This document shows positions 27,423 through 30,759 of a stretch of DNA of 60,388 bases, piece by piece. The notes beneath the pieces are model-generated. The model worked only from the letters and a program-made list of their open reading frames with translations, was not told where the DNA came from and made no database searches. Every line of letters starts with the position of its first letter. Within the stretch, counting starts at the first letter, position 1. Source of the DNA: an uncultured Synechococcaceae cyanobacterium (lineage in GTDB: Bacteria > Cyanobacteriota > Cyanobacteriia > PCC-6307 > Cyanobiaceae); contig CACGPQ010000004.1 of NCBI GenBank assembly GCA_902574955.1, forward strand, positions 1 through 60,388, in the 5' to 3' direction. The position numbers and the translations under genes are program-made.

Positions 27423-27442
27423 AAAAATAAGTTAGAGTTAGA

Positions 27443-27620
27443 TTACTGGATCTTTGGTTAAGTTCTTCTTTATGTGCTCTGATCTGACTCTCTTTCGACA
27501 TGAGGAGACTGTCGTGATGCGGTAGTAAACCGATCTTGTAATCGGAAACGAAAGCCCACTTTGAATCCTCTTCTGGCATTTCCAGGTCGATGCAGCAGAG
27601 AACTGACGGGGATCCGGTGT
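27443..27620 (+). ncRNA. ssaA: 6S RNA (SsaA/Yfr7)
   Basis: Sits directly after purK, where cyanobacterial 6S RNA is found. The ends close in an 8-bp stem: ACTGGATC at 27445-27452 pairs with GATCCGGT at 27611-27618 (one G-U). The predicted length, about 180 nt, matches the ~185 nt reported for Prochlorococcus. Internal complementary arms leave a central bubble, as in the promoter mimic that binds RNA polymerase. A minus-strand ORF across it is a shadow. Exact ends are approximate; no covariance-model search was possible. Confidence 0.85.
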
Positions 27621-27621
27621 T

Positions 27622-27673
27622 ACCTATCAAAATGCATGCTATAACAGGCTTTTGGTAGGTATTTTATTTTTTT
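27622..27673 (+). terminator. Rho-independent terminator of 6S RNA
   Basis: Stem ACCTATCAAAA / TTTTGGTAGGT (with one or two G-U pairs) around an AT-rich loop, followed by ATTTTATTTTTTT. Ends the 6S transcript and separates it from the DUF1651 promoter. Confidence 0.8.
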
Positions 27674-27731: not shown

Positions 27732-27782
27732 TTGACGATCCATTTCTAATGTATTTATATTAGTAGTACACATGTATTACTA
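27732..27782 (+). promoter_or_regulatory. Promoter and LexA-box-like palindrome before DUF1651 copy 1
   Basis: TTGACG at 27732-27737 and TATATT at 27756-27761 form a -35/-10 pair with an 18-nt spacer. A 22-bp imperfect palindrome (27761-27782) overlaps the expected start of transcription. Its core AGTACACATGTATT matches the published cyanobacterial LexA consensus RGTACNNNDGTWCB at all but one position. The same arrangement precedes the second DUF1651 gene. Confidence 0.6.
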
Positions 27783-27786
27783 AGTA

Positions 27787-28086
27787 ATGACTTTAGGAGG
27801 AGCTAATGTTTGGACTAATTTTTCTTACGGTTATCGTAATGAGTCCCCAAGTGGTTGGTTGCTTAGCCCAGACCGCAGCAGATTAATTTTATTTATAAGG
27901 AATAAAAAATCTCCAAGAAATAGTATGAGAATTTTTGCTCATACATATTATGCAAATGATCTTGGTGAGCCAATGGCAATTAAATCATCCACTCAAATGT
28001 ATTTGGATAATGCTTGGGATAAATGGCATGACCTTCAATTAGAAGGTTGGACTTTTGAAGAACTTGAATTACCTGAATCTGTATGA
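27787..28086 (+). CDS. DUF1651 family protein, copy 1
   Basis: 99 aa. The core (GWLLSPDRSRLILFIR ... YYANDLGEPM ... AWDKWHDLQLEGW) matches DUF1651, a family of short proteins limited to Prochlorococcus and marine Synechococcus, with no known function. The first ~20 residues are outside the core. The Shine-Dalgarno AGGAGGAG lies inside this frame and serves an inner ATG in another frame, so the true start is uncertain; a TTG before the core (W-L) is an alternative. Its TGA overlaps the next ATG (ATGA). A paralogue is at 30233. Confidence 0.75.
   Translation: MTLGGANVWTNFSYGYRNESPSGWLLSPDRSRLILFIRNKKSPRNSMRIFAHTYYANDLGEPMAIKSSTQMYLDNAWDKWHDLQLEGWTFEELELPESV
27806..27886 (+). CDS. Nested +1-frame hydrophobic micro-ORF (26 aa), copy 1
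   Basis: ATG preceded by AGGAGG at a 5-7 nt spacing, in the +1 frame of the DUF1651 gene. The product is MFGLIFLTV... with 19 mostly hydrophobic residues ending in VVGC, a lipobox-like end, then a short polar tail. Copy 2 (30252) has the same length, the same start and stop position, and a conservative set of substitutions. It lacks a charged N-terminus. Could be a membrane micropeptide, a leader that couples translation of DUF1651, or chance retained by recent duplication. Confidence 0.45.
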   Translation: MFGLIFLTVIVMSPQVVGCLAQTAAD

Positions 28087-28223
28087 CTAACTTAAATCCA
28101 ATCAAAAAGAAATTATCAAAAGTAGATAGAAAGATATCTATGCAAGACCCATCAAAATTATTAGCAGAATTTTTTAATGGTGTTGTCATTGAACTTGATG
28201 AAGAATATAAATATGACTCATAA
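28083..28223 (+). CDS. Hypothetical protein (46 aa)
   Basis: 46 aa. The ATG overlaps the stop of the DUF1651 gene (ATGA), a junction typical of translational coupling. Basic N-terminal half (NPIKKKLSKVDRKIS), acidic C-terminal half (VIELDEEYKYDS), with QDPSKLLAEFFNG between. No family recognised. Second cistron of a three-gene run. Confidence 0.6.
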   Translation: MTNLNPIKKKLSKVDRKISMQDPSKLLAEFFNGVVIELDEEYKYDS

Positions 28224-28365
28224 TGAATTGATAGATCAAGTTTCCGCAAATTTATTTAAACAAAGTGGAAAGTTAGAAAGCAGAAGATCTTGGTTGGCAA
28301 TGAGAAATTATCTTGAACAATTAGATACCGAACAACTTAAATCCATGCTTAAGGACCACGGATGA
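28213..28365 (+). CDS. Hypothetical protein (50 aa)
   Basis: 50 aa from the ATG at 28213, which overlaps the previous gene by 11 nt. An earlier in-frame GTG (28177) would lie deep inside that gene and is less likely. Helix-rich soluble protein (LIDQVSANLFKQSGKLESR, RNYLEQLDTEQLKSMLKDHG). The motif ESRRSWLAMRNYLE recalls other small picocyanobacterial proteins. Third cistron after DUF1651. Confidence 0.6.
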   Translation: MTHNELIDQVSANLFKQSGKLESRRSWLAMRNYLEQLDTEQLKSMLKDHG

Positions 28366-28375
28366 TTTAAAAACT

Positions 28376-28489
28376 TTATTTAGTTTTTATTTTTTTCTTA
28401 ATTCTCAGAAAACCGTATGTTGCAAAGCCAACCAAAAACATATCCAAGTAAATATGCCAAGTAGGAAAAATCTGGTGTATTAATTCCAT
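28376..28489 (-). CDS. Small membrane protein (37 aa) coupled to the ligase-like gene
   Basis: 37 aa. Start and upstream stop share one base (TAATG) with the NAD-ligase-like gene, so translation is probably coupled. One hydrophobic stretch (IYLDMFLVGFATYGFL) and a Lys-rich tail (RIKKKIKTK). Converges with the DUF1651 run. Function unknown. Confidence 0.55.
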   Translation of the reverse strand: MELIHQIFPTWHIYLDMFLVGFATYGFLRIKKKIKTK

Positions 28490-29238
28490 TAACGTTTTAT
28501 TGCCACTTGCCAATAAGGATAATCTAAATTTGATTTTTCTCTAATCAATTGTAATTTTCTAGAATTTATTTTTACTACTATTCCATCTGTTGGATATTTA
28601 CTAAAAAGCTTCCCTTCTAGCCATTGTTTTCTAAATACTTCAACTTGGCTCGTAAAGTTGCATGAAATATCCTGAGGGATAGTGAAGCCTAGCTTTGAAA
28701 GACTTTTTTTGGACTCATATTGGTTAAGTGTTGAATTAAGTATTTGAAATGCGCAGAAGCTAAGACTTTCAGAAAATCCTTCTTTAGCTCTTAGAAATCC
28801 AGAAGCGATTCTTTGGGAGATATTTGGACTTTGGTTGGGTGCATATAATTCACCTCTAACTTGAAGAACTCCTCGTAAAGGGAGATTATTGGGAATGTCT
28901 TGGACTTTAATAAGTTTACTAGTAACGTCTGCCCCTTTTCTTGAAATTGCTTTCTCCAAGGTTCCATCCCTATATTGCAAAGCAACAGCACAACCATCAA
29001 TTTTTGGTTCAATTAATAATCTGGTATCTACTAATAATCCTTTCAAAAATTCATCTATCGAATCCTTTTCTAATGACGGTAAAACTAGTTTATTTTTCTT
29101 TTTAAAGTAATCACAATTTGGGTTTGTTCTTAATAAATTTTTTTCAAGTTGGTCGAACTGCTTATCAGAGATTAAAGCATTACCATTTCGATAATTATCG
29201 TCATACCATTCAATTCGTTCTTCTAAATAAGTCTTCAT
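28489..29238 (-). CDS. Stand-alone NAD+-dependent DNA ligase adenylation domain protein
   Basis: 249 aa. Residues ~10-40 (EWYDDNYRNGNALISDKQFDQLE) match domain Ia of LigA, which binds NMN. The nucleotidyltransferase domain follows: EPKIDG with the AMP-accepting Lys (motif I), VRGELY (motif III), DGIVVKI (motif IV) and a terminal WQVAIKR (motif V). The protein ends there: OB fold, zinc finger, helix-hairpin-helix and BRCT domains of LigA (~670 aa) are missing. It could still form the enzyme-AMP intermediate; sealing activity alone would be weak or need a partner. E. coli LigB is a more complete relative. Confidence 0.85.
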   Translation of the reverse strand: MKTYLEERIEWYDDNYRNGNALISDKQFDQLEKNLLRTNPNCDYFKKKNKLVLPSLEKDSIDEFLKGLLVDTRLLIEPKIDGCAVALQYRDGTLEKAISRKGADVTSKLIKVQDIPNNLPLRGVLQVRGELYAPNQSPNISQRIASGFLRAKEGFSESLSFCAFQILNSTLNQYESKKSLSKLGFTIPQDISCNFTSQVEVFRKQWLEGKLFSKYPTDGIVVKINSRKLQLIREKSNLDYPYWQVAIKR

Positions 29239-29445
29239 TTAATACGATGGCTTAAGTTTTTGGTCAGGTATCCAACTTGGTTTATCTATAATCCATTTTT
29301 CTCTATCTTCATATTTAACAGTCCATACAAGAAATGAAGAAATTTCTTTTAGAGTTATGCCAACCAAATATCTTGTTTTTGGACTTATTGATATAAATCC
29401 AAATAATAATATTAATAAAATAAGTTTAAAAATACCTTTAATCAT
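29239..29445 (-). CDS. Small membrane protein (68 aa) heading the ligase-like operon
   Basis: 68 aa. One N-terminal helix (GIFKLILLILLFGFISI), then a polar, Trp-containing region ending in DKPSWIPDQKLKPSY. Its TAA is immediately followed by the ATG of the ligase-like gene (zero spacing). No family recognised. Confidence 0.6.
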   Translation of the reverse strand: MIKGIFKLILLILLFGFISISPKTRYLVGITLKEISSFLVWTVKYEDREKWIIDKPSWIPDQKLKPSY

Positions 29446-29475
29446 TAAAAACTCAACGTAATTTTTGCGAACTTT

Positions 29476-29733
29476 TTAATTAATGCAATTCTTATAACCT
29501 TCAATCTTTGCTAGTTCGTCAATATTCAAACCTGTTTCTTCTAGTAAAGTTTCTCCTATATCGTCCTTATTAAATTTTGTTAAAGCTCCTTTAGTAGAGT
29601 ACTTAATACATTGGTTTTTGTATTTTGCTTCTTTGACAACAGGAGATAAATAAAAACCAAACAAGATGATAAAAGCCCCAAAGGTTACCACTTTTCTATG
29701 GTTTTTCCACCATTCATAAAATTTATTGGACAC
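29476..29733 (-). CDS. Small membrane protein with two-Cys tail (85 aa)
   Basis: 85 aa. One helix (VVTFGAFIILFGFYLSPVV) near residues 15-33 and a soluble tail with Cys at ~42 and at the C-terminus (GYKNCIN). The segment YLSPVVKEAKYKNQC resembles YFYPVIKHAKNKLDC in the protein at 56984, so the two look like one family. The two tail Cys could pair if the tail is in an oxidising compartment. Function unknown. Confidence 0.6.
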   Translation of the reverse strand: MSNKFYEWWKNHRKVVTFGAFIILFGFYLSPVVKEAKYKNQCIKYSTKGALTKFNKDDIGETLLEETGLNIDELAKIEGYKNCIN

Positions 29734-29803
29734 AAAAAAATAAATGATTATTTTCTATTTTAAATTGACTGTCAACAAATTACTTTAGAAATTGAAGGAT
29801 AGG

Positions 29804-30112
29804 TTAATTTATTGTTTTTTCATTAATAGATTTAATCCAAGAATAATATCTTGATTTTCTAATCCTTTGCTCTTTCGAGACTAATCTATCCGCAGATTCT
29901 AGAGGTGATTCTCCTTTCTCAACTTTTGTTGTAATAGAAATACCAAAACCTTTTGCTTCAATTTTTGCAATCCCACCCTCTAAAAAAAATAAAAAAGACC
30001 AACCTTTGTTCCATCCTAAATAGAAGGGATTTCGATACATTGCATTCTTTTGGAGATACTCTTTAAATGATATTTTCCTTTTCAAGGAGTTACTTGTATT
30101 CACTATTACCAA
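29804..30112 (-). CDS. Hypothetical protein (102 aa)
   Basis: 102 aa, basic. A hydrophobic patch (GWSFLFFLEGGIAKI) lies in the centre, flanked by a Lys-rich N-terminus and a charged C-terminal half. The last third (SADRLVSKEQRIRKSRYYSWIKSI) is a strong basic helix. No family recognised; peripheral membrane binding is possible. Confidence 0.5.
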   Translation of the reverse strand: MVIVNTSNSLKRKISFKEYLQKNAMYRNPFYLGWNKGWSFLFFLEGGIAKIEAKGFGISITTKVEKGESPLESADRLVSKEQRIRKSRYYSWIKSINEKTIN

Positions 30113-30180
30113 ATAAGAAGTTTACGGCTGATTATTTCTGGAAAGTAATTTTAGTATTTAAATAATTACCAGAGGAATAC

Positions 30181-30228
30181 TTGACGCCTACGAGTAGTAC
30201 ATCTATATTAATAGTACAACTGTATTAT
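30181..30228 (+). promoter_or_regulatory. Promoter and LexA-box-like palindrome before DUF1651 copy 2
   Basis: TTGACG at 30181-30186 and TATATT at 30204-30209 with a 17-nt spacer. Just downstream, AGTACAACTGTATT (30213-30226) again fits RGTACNNNDGTWCB except for one base, in an imperfect palindrome. A further AGTAC lies in the spacer. Same order and spacing as at copy 1. Confidence 0.6.
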
Positions 30229-30232
30229 CTTC

Positions 30233-30523
30233 ATGACCTCAGGAGTTGCTAATGTTCGGACTAATTTTTATCGTGGCAGCCTTATTGACCCCCCAACTGG
30301 CTGGTTGTTTAACAAAAAAAGTGGTTTGTTAATTTTTTTTGAGATTTATAAGAGATCTGTATCTAATAACTTAAAAGTATATACTCATCTTTTCTATGCA
30401 AATGAATTAGGTGAACCAGCCCAAATTAAAAATTCAAGACTTCATTCTAGTGAGGGTGCTTGTGAAACATGGAATGAATTAATTTCAGGAGGTTGGCAAA
30501 TTGTTACTAATAAATTCCAGTAA
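30233..30523 (+). CDS. DUF1651 family protein, copy 2
   Basis: 96 aa. The core (GWLFNKKSGLLIFFE ... FYANELGEPAQIK ... ACETWNELISGGW) aligns without gaps to copy 1 over most of its length, and the DNA upstream is also duplicated. Function unknown; family restricted to marine picocyanobacteria. As in copy 1, the Shine-Dalgarno (AGGAG) fits an inner ATG in the +1 frame, so this start is provisional. Followed after 2 nt by a Cys-containing small gene. Confidence 0.75.
   Translation: MTSGVANVRTNFYRGSLIDPPTGWLFNKKSGLLIFFEIYKRSVSNNLKVYTHLFYANELGEPAQIKNSRLHSSEGACETWNELISGGWQIVTNKFQ
30252..30332 (+). CDS. Nested +1-frame hydrophobic micro-ORF (26 aa), copy 2
   Basis: ATG with upstream AGGAG, +1 frame of DUF1651 copy 2, 26 codons like copy 1. 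The product starts MFGLIFIVAALLTP and ends its hydrophobic part in LAGC, a good lipobox. A run of seven A near codons 22-23 could allow a -1 slip into the DUF1651 frame in this copy; copy 1 has no such run. See the paired finding. Confidence 0.45.
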   Translation: MFGLIFIVAALLTPQLAGCLTKKVVC

Positions 30524-30525
30524 TC

Positions 30526-30759
30526 ATGATCAAGGTAAATCCGTCAAAATGGGAATATCTAAAAGAATCTACCCTAAAACGAAAACGAACAAAGATTTGT
30601 ATTACTTGCAATCACTTTCGCTACAGCACTACAGAAACTTTTGCTACTATCTTGATCTGTCCAAAATACGAAAAACGCATACCAGAGGGTGATCATTTAC
30701 TTAAAGGTTGTAAGTATTGGCAAAAAAATAGGACGGTATTTTCTCCTGAAGCATCTTAA
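30526..30759 (+). CDS. Small Cys-containing protein (77 aa)
   Basis: 77 aa, starts 2 nt after DUF1651 copy 2 and is probably co-transcribed. Cys residues in KICITCNHF, ILICPKYEK and LKGCKYWQ could bind a metal such as zinc. Basic throughout. No family named with confidence. Short CxxC...C...C proteins of this kind recur in marine picocyanobacteria. Confidence 0.6.
   Translation: MIKVNPSKWEYLKESTLKRKRTKICITCNHFRYSTTETFATILICPKYEKRIPEGDHLLKGCKYWQKNRTVFSPEAS

Follow-up and report, generated by a model that had tools for sequence, protein, structure and literature searches.

Two genes for proteins of the DUF1651 family, here called A and B, lie on the forward strand of contig CACGPQ010000004.1 (assembly GCA_902574955.1) of an uncultured Synechococcaceae cyanobacterium. 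The stretch analyzed, positions 1 to 60,388, is our window, and nearly all of its closest named relatives are Prochlorococcus. Nested near the 5' end of each gene is a second open reading frame (ORF), in the +1 frame, that encodes a hydrophobic peptide. The pattern of substitutions in related genes suggests that these loci are dual coding: the outer frame would encode a DUF1651 protein, and the inner one an SOS or phage-stress micropeptide that is under selection and probably inserts in the membrane; we put the probability of this reading at about 0.7. That the inner peptide is both selected and translated appears highly probable from the sequence comparisons. The analogy with DinQ and TisB of Escherichia coli, according to which it would be a membrane-acting stress peptide, is more tentative, and we give it slightly less than even odds.

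Selection on the two reading frames

The inner ORFs of A and B encode the peptides MFGLIFLTVIVMSPQVVGCLAQTAAD and MFGLIFIVAALLTPQLAGCLTKKVVC, respectively, each followed by a stop codon. Both have 26 codons, start 19 nucleotides (nt) 3' of the outer ATG and stop within the same outer codon. A Shine-Dalgarno sequence (SD) precedes each inner ATG, and inspection of the sequence found none at the outer ATG of either gene. A preliminary description of this DNA had reported these signals, frames and coordinates, and all of them agree with the sequence. Among the 54 mechanically called ATG ORFs of at least 90 amino acids (aa) in the window, only A and B contain an SD-led nested ATG at most 45 nt into the gene that opens at least 20 codons.

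To compare the frames we used 155 A and 145 B genes, full length and ungapped, with 100 nt of upstream sequence, together with 29 distinct genes of a third paralogue, C (at least 72% identity to the C reference). Paralogue E, which has the DUF1651 domain and lacks the inner ORF, served as control; 27 of its 32 rows, aligned from residue 1 with 89 codons, were kept, leaving out one divergent copy and four genes of a further type, D. Rates are Fitch counts on FastTree trees, with the mutation spectrum taken from the fourfold sites of A and B, and the intervals in parentheses are bootstraps over codons. Each substitution was classed by its effect in both frames; we counted classes because iqtree2 codon-model likelihoods of different frames are not comparable. 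In this geometry the third position of an outer codon is the second position of an inner codon, and the first outer position is the inner wobble position.

In outer codons 8-22 of B, positions 1, 2 and 3 changed 83, 44 and 22 times, compared with 172, 116 and 260 times elsewhere in the gene; the same codons of C changed 30, 14 and 16 times, compared with 68, 54 and 208. Dividing the ratio of position-1 to position-3 changes in the overlap by the same ratio outside it gives 5.60 (1.68-35.9) for B and 5.65 (2.40-15.3) for C. The E control has no such reversal of phase, with 6, 10 and 35 changes in aligned codons 2-15 and a ratio of 0.51 (0.16-1.26). The outer-synonymous rate of the overlap relative to the rest is reduced in A (0.32, 0.10-0.60), B (0.27, 0.03-0.72) and C (0.33, 0.14-0.58), and again not in E (1.27, 0.68-2.24).

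Within B, changes that alter the outer protein and are silent in the inner frame occur at nearly the neutral rate (85 observed, 90.9 expected; 0.94), and those that are silent in the outer frame and alter the inner peptide are strongly depleted (21 observed, 71.2 expected; 0.29), the corresponding value for the remaining gene being 1.11. Over inner codons 2-16 the ratio of nonsynonymous to synonymous rates (dN/dS) is 0.36 (0.12-0.80) in the inner frame and 2.18 (0.77-18) in the outer frame. In these 15 codons of B the protected protein is the inner one. C combines the phase reversal with constraint on both frames.

Taken as sequence comparisons, these results demonstrate that in B and C the inner frame is under selection, together with its SD and start, and that A has an excess of synonymous constraint; in A the argument for the inner ORF draws on this deficit and on the relatives of the gene. 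In B and C the second frame is under purifying selection over and above that of the first, as dual coding implies; A has the deficit only. The proposal of dual coding in the preliminary description is supported by the phase reversal in B and C, by the outer-synonymous deficit that E lacks, and by the conserved start signals of B and the natural mutants described below; for A, which has only the roughly threefold deficit, the support is weaker. In a rate comparison of both frames, as had been suggested there, synonymous constraint is not limited to the outer frame.

Start signals and natural mutants

The start and stop signals of the inner ORF are well conserved. None of the 145 B genes departs from the inner ATG, the inner stop or the GGAG of the SD, whereas adjacent sites change up to 37 times; the outer ATG is kept in 144 B genes and in all 155 A genes, and the inner ATG in 151 of the 155. 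An unfiltered survey of 164 A and 152 B distinct sequences gave a similar picture: the outer start is ATG in 163 A and 147 B sequences, the inner ATG is present in 152/152 B, and by our criteria both frames are intact in 150 A and 144 B copies.

Damage confined to the outer frame was found in four B copies (L237, L245, L271 and L163) and in none of the 164 A copies, two of which were scored as broken and are merely three residues shorter. Damage confined to the inner frame was absent from the 152 B sequences except for a stop one codon early in L287. Indels that hit both frames number three in B and one in A. In C, the inner start is missing from L315 and L317 and the outer one from L316, L364 and L371 have both frames broken, and L366 and L370 have kept the box (see below), an SD-like sequence and the inner ORF despite a broken outer ORF. 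Three B indel alleles (L248, L251 and L140) place the inner ATG in the frame of the DUF1651 domain; the fused reading reaches the end of the gene in L248 (90 aa) and ends early in L251 and L140 (63 and 30 codons).

The preliminary description had also considered a translated leader coupled to DUF1651. Ribosomes starting at the inner ATG might feed the DUF1651 frame, either through coupling or by slipping into the -1 frame and so joining the peptide to the domain. The SD serving the inner ATG only, a stretch of seven adenines close to the inner end of B, and the indel alleles that bring the inner reading into the domain frame are compatible with this. Against it, A and C share no slippery site, the A-run of B is interrupted by CAA in 26 of 145 genes and by GAA in one, both A and B conserve the outer ATG, the inner ORF survives in copies whose outer ORF is broken, and no conserved in-frame start was seen downstream of the inner stop. 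We do not favor a coupled leader and consider an explanation of this kind very improbable; the frameshift fusion we reject, as the slippery site is not common to the paralogues.

Evidence against dual coding and its weight

Several observations weigh against dual coding, most of them in A. Gene A shows no phase reversal (position-1 to position-3 ratio 0.75, 0.19-2.99), its inner dN/dS over inner codons 2-16 is not below 1 (3.65, 0.94-14.9), and inner codons 17-26 carry no inner constraint (outer-synonymous changes at 1.42 of neutral). The contrast between inner-silent and doubly changing substitutions has the right direction and is not significant in B (1.88, 0.70-7.78) or C (2.72, 0.79-8.07). 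When outer codons were recoded synonymously with the codon usage of the window (20,000 trials), an ATG with SD and 26 open codons arose in 43% of the trials for A and in 3% for B; the presence of the inner ORF in A, taken alone, is unremarkable and proves nothing. Inner-only damage affects nine A sequences, equal to seven genes (one lost-start gene is counted in three loci of genome G010), with five lost starts and two premature stops; in three A genes the inner ATG has become ACG, a change without effect on the outer protein. Among the D-type copies, L349 lacks the inner ATG and L070 the stop, and no inner ORF is present in paralogue E or in six Synechococcus-type DUF1651 genes (L128-L133). 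On the question whether stops break the inner ORF in other paralogues, raised with the original proposal, inner stops occur in 2 of 164 A copies, and E has no such ORF. Finally, when one mismatch is allowed, the LexA-type pattern discussed below has 22 sites in the own genome and 13 in the control, little above the control level.

A rival explanation is that only the outer frame codes, the inner ORF being a by-product of GGA-GGA, AAT-GTT and T-ending codons whose conservation is inherited from DUF1651. The frequent recoding result in A fits this explanation, as do the missing phase reversal, the outer dN/dS of 0.15 and the seven genes that lost the inner start or length. However, outer coding alone does not account for the phase reversal in B and C, the near-neutral rate of inner-silent outer changes in B, the absence of the pattern from E, or inner ORFs that outlive broken outer ORFs. 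It is already contradicted for B and C, and as a general explanation we hold it to be most unlikely.

Frame damage is distributed 7:0 (inner to outer) in A versus 0:4 in B, a Fisher probability of 1/330, with shared ancestry making the independent events fewer. The two frames are separable; A seems to have been retained chiefly as a protein gene and B chiefly as a peptide gene.

An alternative explanation is a nucleotide-level element, for example an antisense-RNA or RNase site, that acts without any peptide. The overlap of A is conserved at all three positions (5, 6 and 20 changes), and excerpts of PMC2518516 report an antisense RNA of the MED4 gene PMM0684. However, such a signal is not expected to produce the three-base periodicity in inner phase seen in B and C, and RNA folding at the start regions is no better than in shuffles (z 0.79 to 1.83). 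We regard the probability of this explanation as very small.

Properties of the inner peptides

The grand average of hydropathy (GRAVY) is 1.52 for the inner peptide of A and 1.67 for that of B; the recoding null has means of 0.41 and 0.71, and only 1.0% and 2.3% of its open trials reach the observed values. The first 20 residues have GRAVY values of 2.08 (A) and 2.05 (B) and contain no charged residue. A charge-free hydrophobic stretch of this kind is typical of a membrane span. Part of the hydrophobicity comes from the reading frame itself, since T-ending outer codons put T at the second position of inner codons. The conservative swaps between the two peptides, which the preliminary description took as a sign of dual coding, are for this reason weak as proof, being partly a product of the T-ending codons.

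Dual coding may be real with a peptide that does not act on membranes and has, for example, a phage protein or the DUF1651 protein as its binding partner. Constraint at the level of single residues, such as the PQ and G positions, would agree with such a role, and the uncharged, strongly hydrophobic first 20 residues argue against it; we consider it possible, though rather unlikely.

The peptides had also been compared with lipoproteins. A lipobox motif has a Cys at the +1 position. Of the 155 A genes, 13 carry Tyr or Phe instead; Tyr takes the place of this Cys in 6 of 145 B and 27 of 29 C genes, and the two MED4 copies have Tyr and Phe. Because the Cys is not conserved, a lipoprotein signal peptide was rejected.

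Upstream signals and proposed mechanism

Table 1. Features of the A and B loci, in coordinates of the window.
Feature	Position	Strand	Basis
Predicted sigma-70-type promoter of A, TTGACG-N18-TATATT	27732..27761	+	consensus scan, 10/12
LexA-type box of A, TAGTACACATGTATTA	27764..27779	+	exact pattern match
Outer gene A, DUF1651 protein, 99 aa	27787..28086	+	Pfam PF07864, E 1.3e-10, residues 23-89
SD of inner ORF A, AGGAGG	27795..27800	+	read from sequence; 5 nt before inner ATG
Inner ORF A, 26-aa hydrophobic peptide, +1 frame	27806..27886	+	sequence; overlap constraint
Predicted promoter of B, TTGACG-N17-TATATT	30181..30209	+	consensus scan, 10/12
LexA-type box of B, TAGTACAACTGTATTA	30212..30227	+	exact pattern match
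Outer gene B, DUF1651 protein, 96 aa	30233..30523	+	Pfam PF07864, E 1.5e-12
SD of inner ORF B, AGGAG	30241..30245	+	6 nt before inner ATG; GGAG unchanged in 145 genes
Inner ORF B, 26-aa hydrophobic peptide, +1 frame	30252..30332	+	sequence; overlap constraint, phase reversal

The outer proteins exceed the curated PF07864 cut-off of 22 bits with 41.9 (A) and 48.2 (B) bits and have no match in PHROGs, PADLOC or NCBIfam. The structure model of A has a mean predicted local distance difference test (pLDDT) score of 63, with residues 1-16 below 50, and the inner ORF looks like an overprint on an N-terminal extension that precedes the DUF1651 domain. A Foldseek comparison of this model with the PDB gave no significant hit (best E 0.26), which is why we draw no function for DUF1651 from the fold.

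The predicted promoter would place the transcript start of A near 27768, some 19 nt upstream of the outer ATG and some 38 nt upstream of the inner one. Promoter-like sites number 13 in the region, with 16.7 expected, and shuffled sequence has them at least as often; the scan by itself therefore proves nothing. The boxes of A and B agree with the cyanobacterial LexA consensus, AGTACWNWTGTACT, in excerpts of PMC3091678, where the sites of P. marinus include GGTACAAATGTATT, before lexA of MED4. Both genes have an exact LexA-type box in the promoter, as expected of the LexA/SOS regulon. The pattern AGTACNNNTGTAYTA has four exact sites in the own genome, three of which precede DUF1651 genes (A, B and an E-type gene on contig C1); the fourth (L382, about 1501-1515; G000:C2:15454-15468) lies between a 292-aa minus-strand ORF and other ORFs, with no DUF1651 gene. 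Upstream of B the boxes are in tandem (30195-30227, forward strand), TAGTACATCTATATTA with one mismatch at 30195-30210 followed by TAGTACAACTGTATTA; A has a single box. A search for recA of the same genome, which is 60.5% complete, as a LexA reference gave no match.

We propose that a single promoter with a LexA-type operator would yield an mRNA on which two start codons lie 19 nt from each other. Translation from the outer one, which has no SD, would give the DUF1651 protein, and translation from the inner one, with its strong SD, the 26-aa hydrophobic peptide encoded over the N-terminal extension. The inner ATG is probably translated and the peptide probably inserts in the membrane; if LexA controls the promoter, phage infection or DNA damage would raise both products. 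Occupation of one start by a 30S subunit would presumably block the other, because the footprint at the outer start covers the inner SD. The paralogues seem to have divided the labor, A being kept mainly for protein, B mainly for peptide and C for both. A bolder version, in which the locus is a self-contained SOS- and phage-triggered module whose short mRNA yields either the DUF1651 protein or a membrane-active peptide, mutually exclusive and acting together or opposed in infection, with the pair split between duplicated paralogues, is speculative and to our minds unlikely.

Comparison with known systems

Membrane genes embedded out of frame in other genes are known from phages, namely Rz1 in Rz of lambda and E in D of phiX174. 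In these, as in the arrangement proposed here, the entire coding sequence of a short membrane peptide or protein lies within another gene and is read in a different frame. The inner ORFs described here differ in being cellular, in following a LexA-type box, in having just 26 codons, and in having been duplicated, with paralogues keeping different frames.

TisB and DinQ, the latter from dinQ-agrB, are SOS-induced hydrophobic peptides of E. coli, and DinQ is a single-span peptide (abstract of PMC3567139). The inner ORFs of A and B resemble DinQ and TisB in encoding short hydrophobic peptides behind a LexA-type box and in the antisense RNA opposite the mRNA in MED4; they differ in lying inside a gene for a protein, in another frame than that of the protein. 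Another difference is that, according to excerpts of PMC2518516, the antisense RNA of PMM0684 is induced along with the mRNA, which it is proposed to protect. Type I toxin-antitoxin systems encode short hydrophobic peptides, as the inner ORFs do (26 aa, with the GRAVY values given above); we do not claim membership, and the reported antisense RNA behaves differently.

DUF1651 genes of MED4 and phage infection

In genome G015 the 6S RNA starts at 652620 and the Cyano-1 RNA at 654509. Excerpts of PMC1242208 place MED4 yfr7 at 652625, between purK and PMM0684, and yfr3 at 654511; because these positions match, we take the G015 gene at 652944 to be PMM0684. It is of type C and carries the inner ORF MFGLIFLMAVVLIHPMAGYLTRKAAF. 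The A-type MED4 gene at 774 kb, which by its position is probably PMM0819, carries the inner ORF MFGLIFLMVIVMSPQVVGFLTPIAAD. A belongs to the same Pfam family as these two genes, and PMM0684 and the probable PMM0819 have the inner ORF as well. Both PMM0684 and PMM0819 rise upon infection with P-SSP7 (PMC5490813), and PMM0684 is also phage-induced according to PMC2518516; the part of PMC5490813 available to us treats the DUF1651 protein only. No nested ORF is described in the available parts of the literature that we found on DUF1651, PMM0684 and PMM0819, or overlapping genes and small proteins of Prochlorococcus, with subscription journals mostly outside this scope.

When cyanophages infect marine picocyanobacteria, DUF1651 genes are part of the set of host genes that go up. 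Should the nested peptide be produced, effects attributed to these genes may have been credited to the wrong product, or to just half of it. The paralogues would also offer a clean natural example of an overprinted gene whose frames drifted apart after duplication, from which the cost of dual coding could be measured in the sequence.

A 6S RNA (Rfam RF00013, 93 bits) lies directly upstream of A at 27440-27624 on the forward strand, the same place that yfr7 occupies before PMM0684 in MED4.

Distribution and neighboring genes

Matches to a pattern of the inner start region occur in 101 of 121 genomes of the genus, and a control pattern gave one match. The 18 sites examined among the listed matches (17 stretches) are at DUF1651 genes or their remnants; an orphan copy may exist elsewhere. 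D-type copies are mixed, and most of those seen carry the inner ORF, usually with a poorer SD. The viral-collection contig IMGVR_UViG_2716884731_000001 (42,221 bases), the sole viral contig matched across three scans, has an A-type gene (L294) with an intact inner ORF near its end; the contig could be of host origin or an integrated element.

Several ORFs adjoin the two genes. On the forward strand at 28083-28365, a 46-aa ORF overlaps the stop of A from 28083 (ATGA) and is itself overlapped by a 62-aa ORF; both may be co-transcribed with A. Between A and B, on the reverse strand at 28489-29238, a 249-aa ORF resembles NAD-dependent DNA ligase over a central part of the latter (TIGR00575, E 1.3e-20, a score well under the cut-off) and has the appearance of a shortened ligase-like gene. 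Three bases after the stop of B, a 77-aa ORF with several cysteines and no family found in Pfam or NCBIfam occupies 30526-30759 on the forward strand.

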